Source of the DNA: a virus
DNA length: 20,225 nucleotides
Direction: 5' to 3' (one strand)
IMG/VR virus record: IMGVR_UViG_3300006919_000623
Coordinates: 1 to 20,225 of that record
Below, piece by piece: positions 4,817 through 13,520 of the stretch. Positions within the stretch are counted from its first letter, which is position 1, and every line of letters begins with the position of its first letter. The notes beneath the pieces were generated by a model, which saw only the letters and a list, made by a program, of their open reading frames with translations, was not told the DNA's origin and searched no databases. Made by a program: the position numbers and the translations under genes.

Positions 4817-6559
4817 ATGGCACTATTTACTCCCTCAGAGTCTCCAGCGATTGTTGTCAAGGAAGTAGATCTTACGGGCGTTGTGCCTAATGTACAATCT
4901 ACAACTGGCGCATTCGTCGGGAACTTTCGTTGGGGTCCGGTTGAACAAGCTACCCTCATCGATGGTGAGGCGACACTTGCTGAGACTTTTGGATCTCCTG
5001 ACGATAATGAAGGAAGAGCAGTCGATTTCCTATCGGCGGCGTATTTCTTACGATACTCAAATTCTATGCAAACTGTTCGAGCAATCGACAGTAATGCAAA
5101 CAACGCAACTGACATATCACAAAGCAGTCAGCCCGTTGTAAAAAATCTCGATAATTGGAACGCACAATTAGCGGCTCGAGATAGCGACGATAATGTTTTT
5201 GTTGCAAAATGGCCAGGAGCGCTTGGTAATTCATTATCAGTTTCTGTCTGTCCACAATCTGCTGCTGACTCAGCATTTACTAACTGGATCTATAAGGGTA
5301 GCTTTGATGCTGCACCTGGTACATCTACTTACGCTACTGGAGTCGGTGCAACAAACGATGAGATGCATGTTGCAGTTGTTGACGAAGACGGTCTATTTAC
5401 TGGTACACGCGGTTCAATCCTCGAAACATTCCCATTCATTTCAAAAGCTTCAAATGCAAAATCACCTGATGGTTCATCTAACTACGCAGTAGAAACGATT
5501 AACGGAAAATCAGAATATGTATGGATGGCAGGTTTCGGAGCAGCAGGTCAGTTCGATGCTGACGCTGGTTCAGCCGCAGTCAGTGGTAAAGATTACAGCT
5601 CTGAAGTCAGAGATGTAAGAACCACATCACTTGCAAACGGTACAGATGCTAGCACATTATCGGCTGGCAACATAGCTACTGGATTCGATAAATTAGAAGA
5701 TAAAGACACAATTACAGTAGACTTTTTGATTGCACCTGGCATGAGTTCAAGATCAGATCAAACTACGGTTGTAAACGATCTAGTTACAACAGCCGGAACT
5801 ACTCGTAAAGATTGTGTTGTAGTTACATCTCCAGCAAGATCAGATATCGTAAACGTATCATCACCAGCTACTCAGGTAACAAATGCAGTAGCAACAGCAG
5901 ATACATTTACAAATTCATCTTATCTGGTAGTTGATAATAACTATCTAAAAGTTTACGATAAATATAACGATAAATACCGCTTTATTCCGGCCGCATCTTC
6001 TACTGCTGGTATCATGGCTGCAACAGATCTAAATGCTGCACCTTGGTTCTCGCCAGCCGGTCCAAGACGAGGCGCATATCTAGGTATTACATCTTTGGCT
6101 TCTTCACCGAATAAGTCACAGCGTGATACTTTATATAAAGCGGGTGTTAACCCAATCTCAAACATACCAGGACAAGGTGTCCTATTGTTTGGTGATAAAA
6201 CAAAATTAGCACGGCCTTCAGCATTCGATAGAATCAACGTTCGGAGATTGTTCCTAACAGTCGAAAGAGCTGTTTCTTTGGCTGCTCGAAATACACTCTT
6301 CGAATTTAATGATGAGTTTTCCCGTGCTGAATTCGTAAACATTGTCGAGCCTTTCTTGAGAGAAATCCAAGGTCGAAGAGGTATAACGGACTTCAGAGTT
6401 GTGTGTGACGCAACAAATAACACTGCGGCCGTAATCGATAGAAATGAATTTGTTGCTAATATCTTCATTAAGCCAGCACGTTCGGTCAACTACATCACTC
6501 TAAACTTTGTAGCTGTAAGAACTGGCGTGGAATTTGAAGAAGTAGCAGGCACAGTATAA
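4817..6559 (+). CDS. 18: Tail sheath protein gp18
   Basis: The 580-residue protein is the contractile tail sheath subunit (T4 gp18, 659 residues), which forms hexameric rings around the tube and contracts to drive it through the host envelope. The N-terminus S-P-A-I-V-V-K-E-V-D-L-T and the following G-A-F-V-G-N-F-R-W-G-P-V segment (about 32-43) are classic sheath features. The C-terminal part (about 430-580) holds the conserved core: G-V-N-P-I, the R-I-N-V-R-R-L-F segment, F-N-D-E-F, and R-E-I-Q-G-R-R-G-I. The middle (about 110-380) is variable, Ser/Thr/Asp-rich and probably surface exposed, as in other sheath proteins. An A/G-rich ribosome site (GGAAAAGGAAAAA) precedes the ATG. Gene 19 follows after 21 nt. 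Confidence 0.96.
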   Translation: MALFTPSESPAIVVKEVDLTGVVPNVQSTTGAFVGNFRWGPVEQATLIDGEATLAETFGSPDDNEGRAVDFLSAAYFLRYSNSMQTVRAIDSNANNATDISQSSQPVVKNLDNWNAQLAARDSDDNVFVAKWPGALGNSLSVSVCPQSAADSAFTNWIYKGSFDAAPGTSTYATGVGATNDEMHVAVVDEDGLFTGTRGSILETFPFISKASNAKSPDGSSNYAVETINGKSEYVWMAGFGAAGQFDADAGSAAVSGKDYSSEVRDVRTTSLANGTDASTLSAGNIATGFDKLEDKDTITVDFLIAPGMSSRSDQTTVVNDLVTTAGTTRKDCVVVTSPARSDIVNVSSPATQVTNAVATADTFTNSSYLVVDNNYLKVYDKYNDKYRFIPAASSTAGIMAATDLNAAPWFSPAGPRRGAYLGITSLASSPNKSQRDTLYKAGVNPISNIPGQGVLLFGDKTKLARPSAFDRINVRRLFLTVERAVSLAARNTLFEFNDEFSRAEFVNIVEPFLREIQGRRGITDFRVVCDATNNTAAVIDRNEFVANIFIKPARSVNYITLNFVAVRTGVEFEEVAGTV

Positions 6560-8934: not shown

Positions 8935-8956
8935 TTTTATTACAAATTTTAATTCG

Positions 8957-8964
8957 TATAAATA
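8957..8964 (+). promoter_or_regulatory. T4-type late promoter box ahead of the gp68-position gene
   Basis: An exact TATAAATA lies in the 50-nt gap after the gp67-like gene, 20 nt before the next ATG. It would drive the 71-aa gene, protease 21, scaffold 22 and capsid 23 up to the terminator at 12289. Confidence 0.8.
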
Positions 8965-8984
8965 ATAGTTAAACAAGGTTTAAA

Positions 8985-9200
8985 ATGAAAACGTTTAAAC
9001 AGCTGAGAGAAAAAACTCGTGGTAAAATGCCTCCTGGCCAGCATATTAAAGATATGAAGGTTGGGAAGAATCATCTTATGATCCACAAGGACAAAGGGCG
9101 ATTCATTACCTATATTGATATGGAAAAACTAGACTCTTACCGTACAGCGGCAGAAGCCGAGAAGATGGGTAAAGAGTTTATAAAACAATATAAAGGTTAA
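8985..9200 (+). CDS. Small basic protein with capsid-targeting-like N-terminus (gp68 position)
   Basis: The 71-residue, Lys-rich protein lies between gp67 and gp21, where T4 has gp68 (a 141-residue prohead core protein). I see no clear sequence match to gp68. The N-terminus M-K-T-F-K-Q-L-R-E is strikingly like the capsid-targeting peptide of T4 internal proteins (M-K-T-Y-Q-E-F-I-A-E), which is cut by gp21 after an [L/I]-x-E motif; here L7-R8-E9 would fit. The rest is basic with a central H-L-M-I-H-K-D-K-G-R-F-I-T-Y-I beta-like stretch and a C-terminal helix (A-E-A-E-K-M-G-K-E-F-I-K-Q-Y). It has its own late promoter and gene 21 starts 4 nt later. Likely a core or internal (packaged) protein; this is inference. 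Confidence 0.7.
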   Translation: MKTFKQLREKTRGKMPPGQHIKDMKVGKNHLMIHKDKGRFITYIDMEKLDSYRTAAEAEKMGKEFIKQYKG

Positions 9201-9204
9201 GACT

Positions 9205-10939: not shown

Positions 10940-12259
10940 ATGGAAACTTATGATCGTTTGGTGGAAAAGTGGAATCCAGTATTAGCAGAAGAATCTGCCG
11001 GTACTATCTCCGATAACCACCGTAAAGCAGTAACAGCTGTTCTCTTAGAGAACACAGAAAAAGCTCTTCAAGAAGAGCGCGCACAAATGAACTTTTTGTC
11101 AGAAGCACCTGCAACTTCTGTATCTAATGCATCTGTATCAAACTGGGATCCAGTATTGATTTCATTAGTACGTCGTGCAGCACCTAACATGATTGCTTAT
11201 GACGTTGCTGGCGTTCAGCCGATGACTGGTCCAACAGGCCTGATCTTCGCAATGAAAGCTCGCTACACAAGTGGTACAACTGGTGCAACCGAAGCTCTAT
11301 TCAACGAAGCAGACACTACATTCGCTGGTGACTCTGCAGATACTCATTCCTCATCACCATCAGGTCTTGACGGAATCGATCCAGCTGCTGGTAACGTTGC
11401 TGGTGACTCATCACTTGACTCAGAACGAAGCCTTACATTCGGCGACGGTATTGACACTGGTCGGGCTGAACTTTCAGGTGCATTCCGTAACATGGGCTTC
11501 ACCATCGAAAAATCAACTGTGACAGCGAAGTCACGTGCGTTGAAAGCGGAATACTCTCTAGAACTAGCACAAGACTTGAAAGCAATTCATGGTCTTGATG
11601 CTGAGACAGAATTGGCAAACATTCTGTCAACAGAGATCTTAGCGGAAATTAACCGTGAAGTAATCCGAACAATCAACTCACAAGCTAAAACTGGTGCAGG
11701 TCAATCCTCAACAGCAATCAACGGTATCTTTGACATGTCAACAGATGCTGACGGTCGTTGGTCAGTTGAAAAATTCAAAGGCTTACACGTACAAATCGAA
11801 AGAGATTCAAACGTGATTGCAAAAGAAACACGTAGAGGAAAAGGTAACTTCATTATCTGTTCTTCAGACGTTGCTTCTGCTCTAGCAGCTGCAGGTTCTT
11901 TGGATTATGCTCCGGCACTTTCAACTAACTTGAATGTTGATGACACAGGTAATACATTTGCAGGTGTTATGAACGGTAAAACACGAGTCTATATTGACCC
12001 GTATTCAACAACCGATTATGTAACTGTAGGTTATAAGGGTACTAACCCATATGACGCAGGTGTTTTCTACTGTCCATATGTACCGTTAACAATGGTACGT
12101 GCGGTTGGTGAGAATGACTTCCAGCCAAAAATTGGTTTTAAAACTCGTTACGGCATGGCGTCAAACCCATTCGTAGGTTCAACACCAGCAAATGGTCTTG
12201 CAACAGCGAAAACAAACCAGTACTACAGAATCTTCCGTGTTGACAACATCATGGCATAA
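10940..12259 (+). CDS. 23: Major capsid protein gp23
   Basis: The 439-residue protein is the HK97-fold major head protein (T4 gp23, 521 residues). A 55-residue N-terminal scaffolding region ends in N-F-L-S-E|A, matching the [L/I]-x-E gp21 cleavage site, so the mature form should start at A56 (T4 cleaves after residue 65). Conserved parts include N-W-D-P-V-L-I-S-L-V-R-R-A-A-P (68-82), G-V-Q-P-M-T-G-P-T-G-L-I-F-A-M (92-106), S-R-A-L-K-A-E-Y-S-L-E-L-A-Q-D-L, and the C-terminal G-Y-K-G-T-N-P-Y-D-A-G-V-F-Y-C-P-Y-V-P-L. The middle segment around 115-165 is Asp/Ser-rich and likely surface exposed. AAGGAG precedes the ATG. A strong terminator follows. No gp24 vertex paralogue is in this window. Confidence 0.98.
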   Translation: METYDRLVEKWNPVLAEESAGTISDNHRKAVTAVLLENTEKALQEERAQMNFLSEAPATSVSNASVSNWDPVLISLVRRAAPNMIAYDVAGVQPMTGPTGLIFAMKARYTSGTTGATEALFNEADTTFAGDSADTHSSSPSGLDGIDPAAGNVAGDSSLDSERSLTFGDGIDTGRAELSGAFRNMGFTIEKSTVTAKSRALKAEYSLELAQDLKAIHGLDAETELANILSTEILAEINREVIRTINSQAKTGAGQSSTAINGIFDMSTDADGRWSVEKFKGLHVQIERDSNVIAKETRRGKGNFIICSSDVASALAAAGSLDYAPALSTNLNVDDTGNTFAGVMNGKTRVYIDPYSTTDYVTVGYKGTNPYDAGVFYCPYVPLTMVRAVGENDFQPKIGFKTRYGMASNPFVGSTPANGLATAKTNQYYRIFRVDNIMA

Positions 12260-12264
12260 GATTA

Positions 12265-12284
12265 AGTATCACTAGCTCGATACT
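12265..12284 (+). repeat. Small hairpin after gene 23
   Basis: AGTATC (12265-12270) and GATACT (12279-12284) form a 6-bp inverted repeat with an 8-nt loop, 6 nt after the gene 23 stop and just before the main terminator. It may be an accessory stem of the terminator region or a 3'-end stabiliser. Confidence 0.45.
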
Positions 12285-12288
12285 AACT

Positions 12289-12314
12289 AGGGTCGCTTCG
12301 GCGGCCCTTTTTTT
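12289..12314 (+). terminator. Strong intrinsic terminator after major capsid gene
   Basis: The stem AGGGTCGC (12289-12296) pairs with GCGGCCCT (12301-12308), with one G·U pair, closed by a C(TTCG)G tetraloop and followed by seven T. UUCG loops are especially stable. This should end the late transcript covering genes 21-22-23 and separate it from the downstream small genes. Confidence 0.93.
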
Positions 12315-12332
12315 ATTTTAATTTAAAAAATG

Positions 12333-12396
12333 TTTTGTTTGTTTTCAACTACTTATGAAAAAAAAGCGTAAGTTGTTGTTTTTAAACGAAACAAAA
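12333..12396 (+). repeat. Imperfect inverted repeat upstream of orphan gene pair
   Basis: Outer arms TTTTGTTTGTTT (12333-12344) and AAACGAAACAAAA (12384-12396) are complementary apart from one bulged base. Inner arms AACTACTTA (12347-12355) and TAAGTTGTT (12369-12377) match at 8 of 9 positions, around a 13-nt A-rich loop. It lies just upstream of the sigma70-like promoter at 12400. Confidence 0.5.
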
Positions 12397-12399
12397 AGG

Positions 12400-12428
12400 T
12401 GTACATTCCCTAGAAACTGTTGTATAAA
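12400..12428 (+). promoter_or_regulatory. Sigma70-like promoter ahead of orphan gene pair
   Basis: TGTACA (12400-12405, 4 of 6 to TTGACA) and TATAAA (12423-12428, 5 of 6 to TATAAT) are separated by 17 nt. The element follows a strong terminator and sits 27 nt before the ATG at 12456. There is no TATAAATA late box here, so this pair is probably transcribed early or in middle phase by host-type RNA polymerase. Confidence 0.55.
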
Positions 12429-12455
12429 AGATATATCAGATAAAGGAAAAACCAA

Positions 12456-12707
12456 ATGTCAGTAAAAACTCTAATCGATCAAACATTCAGCTACGCACAA
12501 ACAGGTGGAGATCTTAAAGATCTTTATATGAGCGATTGTAAATCTTTCTTAGCAGTACATTTTCATCTTGGAATGAAGCAGTTTAAAATGGCTTCAGCAT
12601 TAGTAGACGAAATGGATACTGAACCACGTGAGCAAATCTGCATGGCGATTGCTGAAGAATACGGTAATGACTTTTTGGTAAACAACTTTGGTTATGAGGT
12701 AGCTTAA
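12456..12707 (+). CDS. Uncharacterised small protein (83 aa)
   Basis: I do not recognise this 83-residue protein. It looks largely helical: an N-terminal helix (L-I-D-Q-T-F-S-Y-A-Q), an acidic turn (G-G-D-L-K-D-L-Y-M), a His-containing hydrophobic stretch around 33-41 (A-V-H-F-H-L-G-M-K) and an acidic helix ending N-N-F-G-Y-E-V-A. No signal peptide, membrane segment or metal-binding cluster is visible. The ATG at 12456 has an AAGGAAAA site 8-15 nt upstream, and AT-rich codon use is like its neighbours. Its stop overlaps the next start (TAATG 12705-12709), so the two small genes form a coupled pair. Its separate promoter suggests a host-interaction or accessory role; that is inference only. 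Confidence 0.8.
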   Translation: MSVKTLIDQTFSYAQTGGDLKDLYMSDCKSFLAVHFHLGMKQFKMASALVDEMDTEPREQICMAIAEEYGNDFLVNNFGYEVA

Positions 12708-12922
12708 TGTATAAAATGATGTTCAAATATTGGCACAATGAAAAAACATGGTGCGAAACAACTTTACACGGCGCAACAAAAGAAGACGTGTACGAATCAG
12801 CTAGACAATGGTCACTCAAAGCTAGCCCAGAGAAAGAAGGCCACTTTACAATATCAGCCTTATGGCACATGGAACCCAAGAAATGCATGTCTGGGTTTCA
12901 CATGAAAAAGGTAGGCTGCTGA
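12707..12922 (+). CDS. Uncharacterised small aromatic-rich protein (71 aa)
   Basis: I do not recognise this 71-residue protein. It is basic and rich in Trp (W9, W15, W35, W53), Met and His, with three cysteines (C16, C60, C71). The pattern is a beta-like N-terminus (M-F-K-Y-W-H-N-E-K-T-W), a helix beginning T-K-E-D-V-Y-E-S-A-R-Q-W, then another beta-like stretch (H-F-T-I-S-A-L-W-H), suggesting a small alpha/beta domain. The ATG overlaps the upstream stop (TAATG). The TGA stop at 12920-12922 lies inside the terminator hairpin, so ribosomes finishing this gene would cover the left arm of the stem. Together with the 83-aa protein it forms a self-contained two-gene unit. Confidence 0.75.
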   Translation: MYKMMFKYWHNEKTWCETTLHGATKEDVYESARQWSLKASPEKEGHFTISALWHMEPKKCMSGFHMKKVGC

Positions 12923-12936
12923 AAAGCAGCCTTTTT
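12913..12936 (+). terminator. Intrinsic terminator after orphan gene pair
   Basis: AGGCTGCT (12913-12920) and AGCAGCCT (12925-12932) form a perfect 8-bp stem closed by a GAAA tetraloop, followed by a run of T to 12936. The stop codon of the 71-aa gene overlaps the loop. It ends the orphan-pair transcript just before a late promoter. Confidence 0.93.
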
Positions 12937-12941
12937 ACTTA

Positions 12942-12949
12942 TATAAATA
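12942..12949 (+). promoter_or_regulatory. T4-type late promoter box ahead of tail-tube-like gene
   Basis: An exact TATAAATA lies 25 nt before the ATG at 12975 and 5 nt after the terminator T-run. It restarts late transcription for the structural gene downstream. Confidence 0.8.
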
Positions 12950-12974
12950 GATGTAAGCAGAACGGAAAAAGAAT

Positions 12975-13520
12975 ATGCCTACATTAAATCCAACAGTTGA
13001 AGTAGATGTCAGTTTAACGAGCTCACAAAGCCAGCTCAATAATATTAACTACTTACAGCCAAACGCGTTTAAACTTTCAATTGATCGAAAGAACTTTCCT
13101 AACCTAGAGTTCTTTGCTCAATCTGTGCTACATCCAGACACATCTCTTACTGCAGCAGAACTTCCACATCTACGCGTGGCAAATGTACCTTTTGCTGGAG
13201 ATACACTTCGGTTTGGCGAACTATCTGCAATGATTATTCTTGATGAGAATATGAATTCATACATTGAAATGTATAACTGGATTACTCGTATCGTTCAACA
13301 GGATTATAAATCGCCACTAAATAGAACTGAAAAGATACCTCCAACAAACGCTGATATTACTGTGTCTGTTTTGTCTAGTCACAATAATACTACACGAAAA
13401 ATTAAATATAAAGATTGTATACCAACTGGTCTCGGTAATATTACATTTGAATCGACTACATCTGAATCTTTCCTTACGTATCCCGCTAATTTTAGATTCT
13501 CTTACTTTGAAATTTCTTAA
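12975..13520 (+). CDS. Tail-tube-fold protein, possible tail completion protein gp3
   Basis: The 181-residue protein shares the pattern of gp19 in this window: F-F-A-Q-S-V-L-H-P (46-54; gp19 F-L-C-E-A-A-Q-L-P), a P-x-x-x-V-A-N-V-P-F-A-G-D-x-L-x-F-G-E segment (64-82; gp19 M-P-F-R-G-R-…-A-G-D), then I-I-L-D-E-N-M-N-S-Y and a N-W-I-T-R helix, ending in an aromatic beta strand (F-R-F-S-Y-F-E-I-S). I infer a tail-tube-like fold. In marine T4-like phages the gene between 23 and uvsY is commonly annotated as gp3, the tail completion/sheath stabiliser; T4 gp3 is 176 residues. I am confident it is a tail protein but less sure it is gp3 rather than another tube-like protein. It has its own late promoter, and uvsY follows after 16 nt. 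Confidence 0.72.
   Translation: MPTLNPTVEVDVSLTSSQSQLNNINYLQPNAFKLSIDRKNFPNLEFFAQSVLHPDTSLTAAELPHLRVANVPFAGDTLRFGELSAMIILDENMNSYIEMYNWITRIVQQDYKSPLNRTEKIPPTNADITVSVLSSHNNTTRKIKYKDCIPTGLGNITFESTTSESFLTYPANFRFSYFEIS

Follow-up and report, generated by a model that had tools for sequence, protein, structure and literature searches.

A probable PeSL-like accessory cassette in a recurrent slot after gene 23 of marine T4-like phages

PeSL (promoter-early stem-loop) cassettes consist of a sigma70-like early promoter and a stem-loop with a terminator role, and are repeated before small non-core genes. In T4-like phages, gene shuffling has been attributed to them (Arbiol 2010; Comeau 2014; cited in PMC4503421). 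Variable insertions are also documented in cyanophages, in which the region between gp17 and gp18 is hypervariable (PMC3037559). Here we describe a locus of a marine T4-like myophage that, with a probability of roughly 75%, is a PeSL-like accessory cassette in a recurrent slot of this lineage. This reading is based on the architecture of the locus, the variability of the slot, a repeated promoter and the swapping of cargo, all seen in the sequences themselves.

The window is the whole stretch of DNA analyzed, the 20,225-base viral record IMGVR_UViG_3300006919_000623. It encodes, in order, a head-tail adaptor, terminase, sheath, tube, portal, gp21, gp22 and gp23, followed by the cassette. Next come a tail-tube-like gene, UvsY, a UvsW-type helicase, a gp55-like late sigma factor and, after the latter, gp47, gp46 and a clamp-like gene. 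The upstream flank of the cassette is gene 23 (10940-12259, plus strand; PHROG 138, E = 1e-156), the late gene for the major head protein. The downstream flank (12975-13520, plus strand) matches PHROG 45, “tail tube” (E = 2e-28), and is a weak, distant paralogue of the window's own gp19 (about 20% identity); its identification as T4 gene 3 in an earlier note on this DNA may be doubtful. In L002 (contig 3300006916_000699), what looks like a frameshift at position 5496 splits gene 23 after residue 337, before residue 338. The rest of the sequence is identical, and the frameshift is probably an assembly or sequencing error.

The nearest named phage, C48C1 (Kyanoviridae), shares the gene order of the window, but its gene 23 adjoins the tail gene without an insert. 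Across relatives we measured 59 distinct intervals between these two genes, 18 short (28-67 nt) and 41 long (288-2255 nt). No terminator was found in any of the short intervals. Among the 41 long ones, a script placed one 27-57 nt downstream of gene 23 in 40 cases, and the exception, L006, shows one in the alignment. Of these 41 intervals, 32 have the late box TATAAATA, located 32-51 nt upstream of the tail-tube-like gene. Insulation by a terminator and a restarted late promoter accompanies the presence of an insert. The cargo includes an 83-aa protein (P83) with a 71-aa protein (P71), as in the window, P83 with an unrelated 61-aa gene (L004 and L005), members of the MLLPNGS family, a HAD-like protein, and genes of 66-233 aa on the minus strand, inserts being found on either strand among relatives. 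Most relatives have the slot without P83 or with different genes. L042 has an apparently empty slot, 288 nt long, with the terminator and TATAAATA and no ORF of at least 30 aa. In six intervals from other clades (L055, L072, L073, L076, L077 and L091), TATAAATA is located just 3′ of the gene-23 terminator and upstream of the cargo, and because of this position the cargo there may be late rather than early.

The interval after gene 23 is best read as a recurrent insertion slot of the marine T4-like lineage. The earlier note had described a self-contained accessory cassette and anticipated variable content at this locus, and the interval comparison bears out both: terminators flank the cargo, the cargo is swapped, and the flanking genes are adjacent in the 18 short intervals. 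Like the cyanophage gp17-gp18 region, the slot is a place in marine T4-like phages where small genes of varying identity are inserted amid conserved structural ones, but it lies elsewhere, after gene 23, and holds small ORFans rather than host metabolic genes. The papers found in our literature search do not describe a slot after gene 23. A second variable spot was noted between a small prohead gene and an unrecognized 71-aa gene that precedes gp21 (8935-9204 in the window, 1278-1773 in L006). It is longer by a few hundred bases in L006, and in the window it contains TATAAATA at 8957.

Both borders of the cassette carry intrinsic terminators on the plus strand. T1 (12289-12315, hairpin 12289-12308) follows gene 23 with an 8-bp stem, a UUCG-type loop and a T-run. 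Its predicted RNA fold has an energy of −14.8 kcal/mol (z about −4.1 against shuffled sequences), and the alignment shows it in all close relatives. T2 (12913-12937, hairpin 12913-12932) likewise has an 8-bp stem and a T-run (z about −4.2 against shuffles), and its loop contains the P71 stop codon. The T2 hairpin is also present 3′ of other cargo, in L004, L005 and L018-L020. Terminator-like sites are enriched here, with 7 found in 3 kb where 1.7 are expected. Beyond T2, a T4-type late promoter of the tail-tube-like gene, TATAAATA, lies at 12942-12949 (plus strand). The terminator on each side and the late-type box at the flank had all been reported before, and we confirm them.

An early-type, sigma70-like promoter motif precedes P83 (12380-12438, plus strand), with a −35 element TGTACA at 12400-12405, a 17-nt spacer and a −10 element TATAAA at 12423-12428. 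By consensus this site is unremarkable. A consensus promoter scan did not list 12400-12428, and the scan itself performed at chance in this DNA (7 sites found, 7.8 expected), so the basis on which the earlier note had proposed a promoter was weak. Generic sigma70 scores upstream of P83 homologues were just moderately above those of random pieces. Relatives have TGG-TATTCT or TGG-TAGACT, an extended −10, at this position. Two features that all sibling phages keep, a conserved T at the end of the element and the extended TG, are absent from the window copy, which may be weak because of this.

The comparative evidence gives a firmer result. The site was recovered in a held-out motif search (E = 3.7e-7) and by a model trained solely on copies before genes unrelated to P83 (E = 3e-6, 24.7 bits). 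A sister model built without slot copies scored it at 27.2 bits, and 20 shuffled versions of the 179 kb searched gave at most 12.6 bits. The box GAAACAAAAAGG-TGTACA, 17 nt, GGTAnnnTAG also precedes other small genes in G1, a 99.6-kb relative (numbered in the orientation of the window), and in the more distant contigs G2 and G3. Of six clear matches in G1, five fall in the accessory/replication region (14-34 kb), where they have PhoH, HAD and small ORFs as neighbours or lie shortly before gp32. The sixth is the P83 copy, the sole clear match in the structural block at 38-99 kb. An independent search for exact copies of the 22-nt upstream part of the promoter returned 19 stretches in the viral collection, which precede small genes of several unrelated families. 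Named phages gave no convincing DNA match for the promoter/stem-loop region. The promoter is thus real as a repeated sequence element, and in this form the earlier claim that the cassette has its own promoter holds.

Directly upstream of the −35 element is a stem-loop that the earlier note had missed (12331-12393, 63 nt, plus strand). It has the core CAACTACTTA...TAAGTWGTTG and outer arms GTTTYGTTT/AAACGAAAC, and its predicted RNA fold has an energy of −20.5 kcal/mol (z = −4.85). The same hairpin occurs before the promoter copy at 24.3 kb in G1. The whole stem-loop is present at just two of the G1 promoter copies, other copies having its 3′ half. The inner stem is followed by TTTTT and the stem is G+C-poor.

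We considered whether P83 and P71 are instead conserved late genes of the structural operon, read from gene 23 or from a late promoter. They are on the same strand and inside the late block, and the −10 of the window, TATAAAAG, matches TATAAATA at 6 of 8 positions. However, the siblings carry TATTCT or TAGACT there, no TATAAATA precedes P83, and terminators stand on both sides. Conserved late structural genes in all relatives were not what the comparison revealed, as P83 and P71 are absent or different in most. We regard this alternative as very unlikely. Under the preferred reading of an accessory cassette, P83 and P71 are probably expressed early, given the promoter type and the genes found behind this promoter elsewhere. 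The earlier suggestion of an early, insulated unit accordingly divides into two parts: insulation from late transcription and an early-type promoter are backed by the terminators, the promoter motif and the cargo, and early timing is a probable consequence.

The locus resembles PeSL cassettes in its sigma70-like early-type promoter of the repeated form TGTACA-17-(TGG)TAnnnT (with a degenerate −10 in the window copy), in the adjacent stem-loop, and in the repetition of this module before small non-core genes in G1 and before several gene families in viral contigs. It is also a site of cargo exchange, with gene swaps and allele reassortment visible and breakpoints at the repeats putative. It differs in its location, a single fixed slot amid the late structural genes, whereas PeSL cassettes occur in a broad hyperplastic region, and in having the whole stem-loop at some copies only, with a putative terminator role for a G+C-poor stem. 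As in a moron, a unit with its own promoter and terminator is placed between genes that are adjacent in relatives; it appears autonomous, foreign to the flanking operon and missing in relatives. The term moron comes from lambdoid prophages, whereas this is a T4-like phage in which the cassette would presumably act during the lytic cycle. As promoter, stem-loop and repetition are all found, we conclude that the locus functions in the manner of a PeSL-type moron cassette, probably as a new member of the PeSL kind. Since the slot is filled by different small genes in relatives, or left without any, it would represent a known type of gene-swapping site rather than a new system.

The two genes of the cassette, P83 (12456-12707) and P71 (12707-12922), both on the plus strand, were correctly recognized in the earlier note, as was their overlap at TAATG, in which the P71 start overlaps the P83 stop. 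A 101-aa ORF on the minus strand (12583-12888) was rejected as a gene, as it is interrupted in L003. P83 has homologues at 22 loci (pairwise dN/dS 0.22-0.48). It is acidic (pI 4.5) and predicted by AlphaFold2 to form five helices (mean pLDDT 95), with the motif D-M-D-T-E-P-R-E as its conserved heart. P71 has homologues at three loci (pairwise dN/dS 0.20-0.73), is basic (pI 8.8) and gave a poor predicted model (pLDDT 55). Its high content of Trp, Met, His and Cys, also pointed out previously, makes it an outlier in the window (25% of residues, compared with 3-13% in all other window proteins).

Profile searches with P83 and P71 gave nothing convincing in Pfam, PHROGs, NCBIfam or PADLOC, and homologues of the two were not found in named phages. 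The anti-defence or host-takeover role that the earlier note had raised is putative, as the lack of matches in these four libraries speaks neither for nor against it. For P83, the predicted fold had no match in PDB or BFVD at E ≤ 0.001, the best PDB sequence match (E = 0.09) was at chance level, and a search of GTDB genomes with a single short peptide pattern found no relative. Profile comparison revealed no relation between P83 and the MLLPNGS cargo family.

The earlier note had proposed that the two genes may form a functional pair, and this is not supported by their distribution. P83 occurs without P71 at nearly all of its 22 loci, and in L004 and L005 the place of P71, exactly between TAATG and T2, is taken by the unrelated 61-aa gene. 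An obligate two-gene partnership is contradicted on these grounds, and P71 is most likely an independent passenger. The same distribution largely refutes a toxin-antitoxin or other obligate two-protein module. Two small, translationally coupled genes behind one promoter, with one acidic and one basic product, would suit such a module, but its second partner is missing or replaced, no toxin or antitoxin profile was matched in the four databases, and we consider it extremely unlikely.

A further alternative is that P83 is of a virion-internal or injected kind, its domain being packaged in the head of some phages and its position next to gene 23 reflecting a head role. The C-terminal ~54 residues of P83 match inside mosaic proteins of 600-760 aa in L120-L123 (held-out E = 2e-8 to 2e-9). 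In those at L120 1084-3369 and L122 1729-3525, repeated ESVELDE-type linkers join the modules, one of which is P83-like. The linkers contain L-x-E, a motif of the kind cleaved by the prohead protease of T4, and gp23 of the window carries LSE-A at the expected place. Given the resemblance of the linkers to such sites, the mosaic proteins may be cleaved head-internal polyproteins. P83 itself, however, has no such linker and stands behind an early-type promoter, its homologues in L007-L009 and L109/L111 are among DNA-polymerase, MazG- and nucleotide-type genes, and slot P83 is missing from most relatives. The virion location of the mosaic proteins is putative, and a head role for P83 seems to us unlikely. 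Quite unlikely, too, is a combined version, in which P83 would belong to an undescribed host-directed family with two uses: its members would be products of early cassettes in certain marine phages and, in others, modules of a head-internal polyprotein that is cut by a protease and enters the cell along with the DNA.

T4 AsiA is a model for a small phage protein that binds a host protein. As P83 is small, acidic, all-helical and non-catalytic and has an early-type promoter, our guess, by analogy with AsiA, is that it is most likely a protein-binding accessory protein that acts on the host.

Several lines of evidence connect the cargo with the early region. Three cargo families besides P83 have homologues close to it or behind the same promoter elsewhere. 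In L107, P83, an MLLPNGS gene and a VHYVGMDEATY gene are close together, and these appear singly or in part in the slots of different phages. The HAD-like cargo of L033 has a 60% match at 14.4 kb in G1, in a gene that follows an early-type promoter. For one cargo gene of L051 the match (61%) is with a member of a G3 operon behind such a promoter. From these relationships we infer that the slot draws on a pool of early-region accessory genes. Alleles within the cassette also reassort: compared with the window, P83 is 96% and P71 77% identical in L003, and P83 is 71% and P71 90% identical in L006. Divergence of P83 is far greater in its N-terminal than in its C-terminal part, and this holds for synonymous sites too (in comparisons with L005 and L006, dS is 0.56-0.67 in the N-terminal part and 0.19 in the C-terminal part), which suggests recombination within the gene. 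The homology needed for exchange may come from the promoter and stem-loop sequences that the copies have in common.

In combination, the proposed cassette would comprise, in order, the gene-23 terminator, the stem-loop with an early promoter of host-sigma70 type, P83 and a downstream partner gene, the second terminator and, last, a late promoter of its own for the tail gene. Transcripts of gene 23 would end at T1, host polymerase would transcribe P83 and P71 from the cassette promoter, probably early, their message would end at T2, and TATAAATA would restart late transcription for the tail gene. The cargo would be interchangeable, drawn from small accessory genes that stand behind the same promoter in the early region. 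We consider the observation real and well explained in kind. Neither the P83 family nor an insertion slot at this position seems to have been described before. The finding would give abundant marine T4-like phages a defined slot in which small early-type genes are gained and swapped while the late operon is left undisturbed. The repeated promoter module could be used to list early accessory genes of this uncultured lineage, and P83 and its slot-mates are concrete candidates for tests of host interaction.
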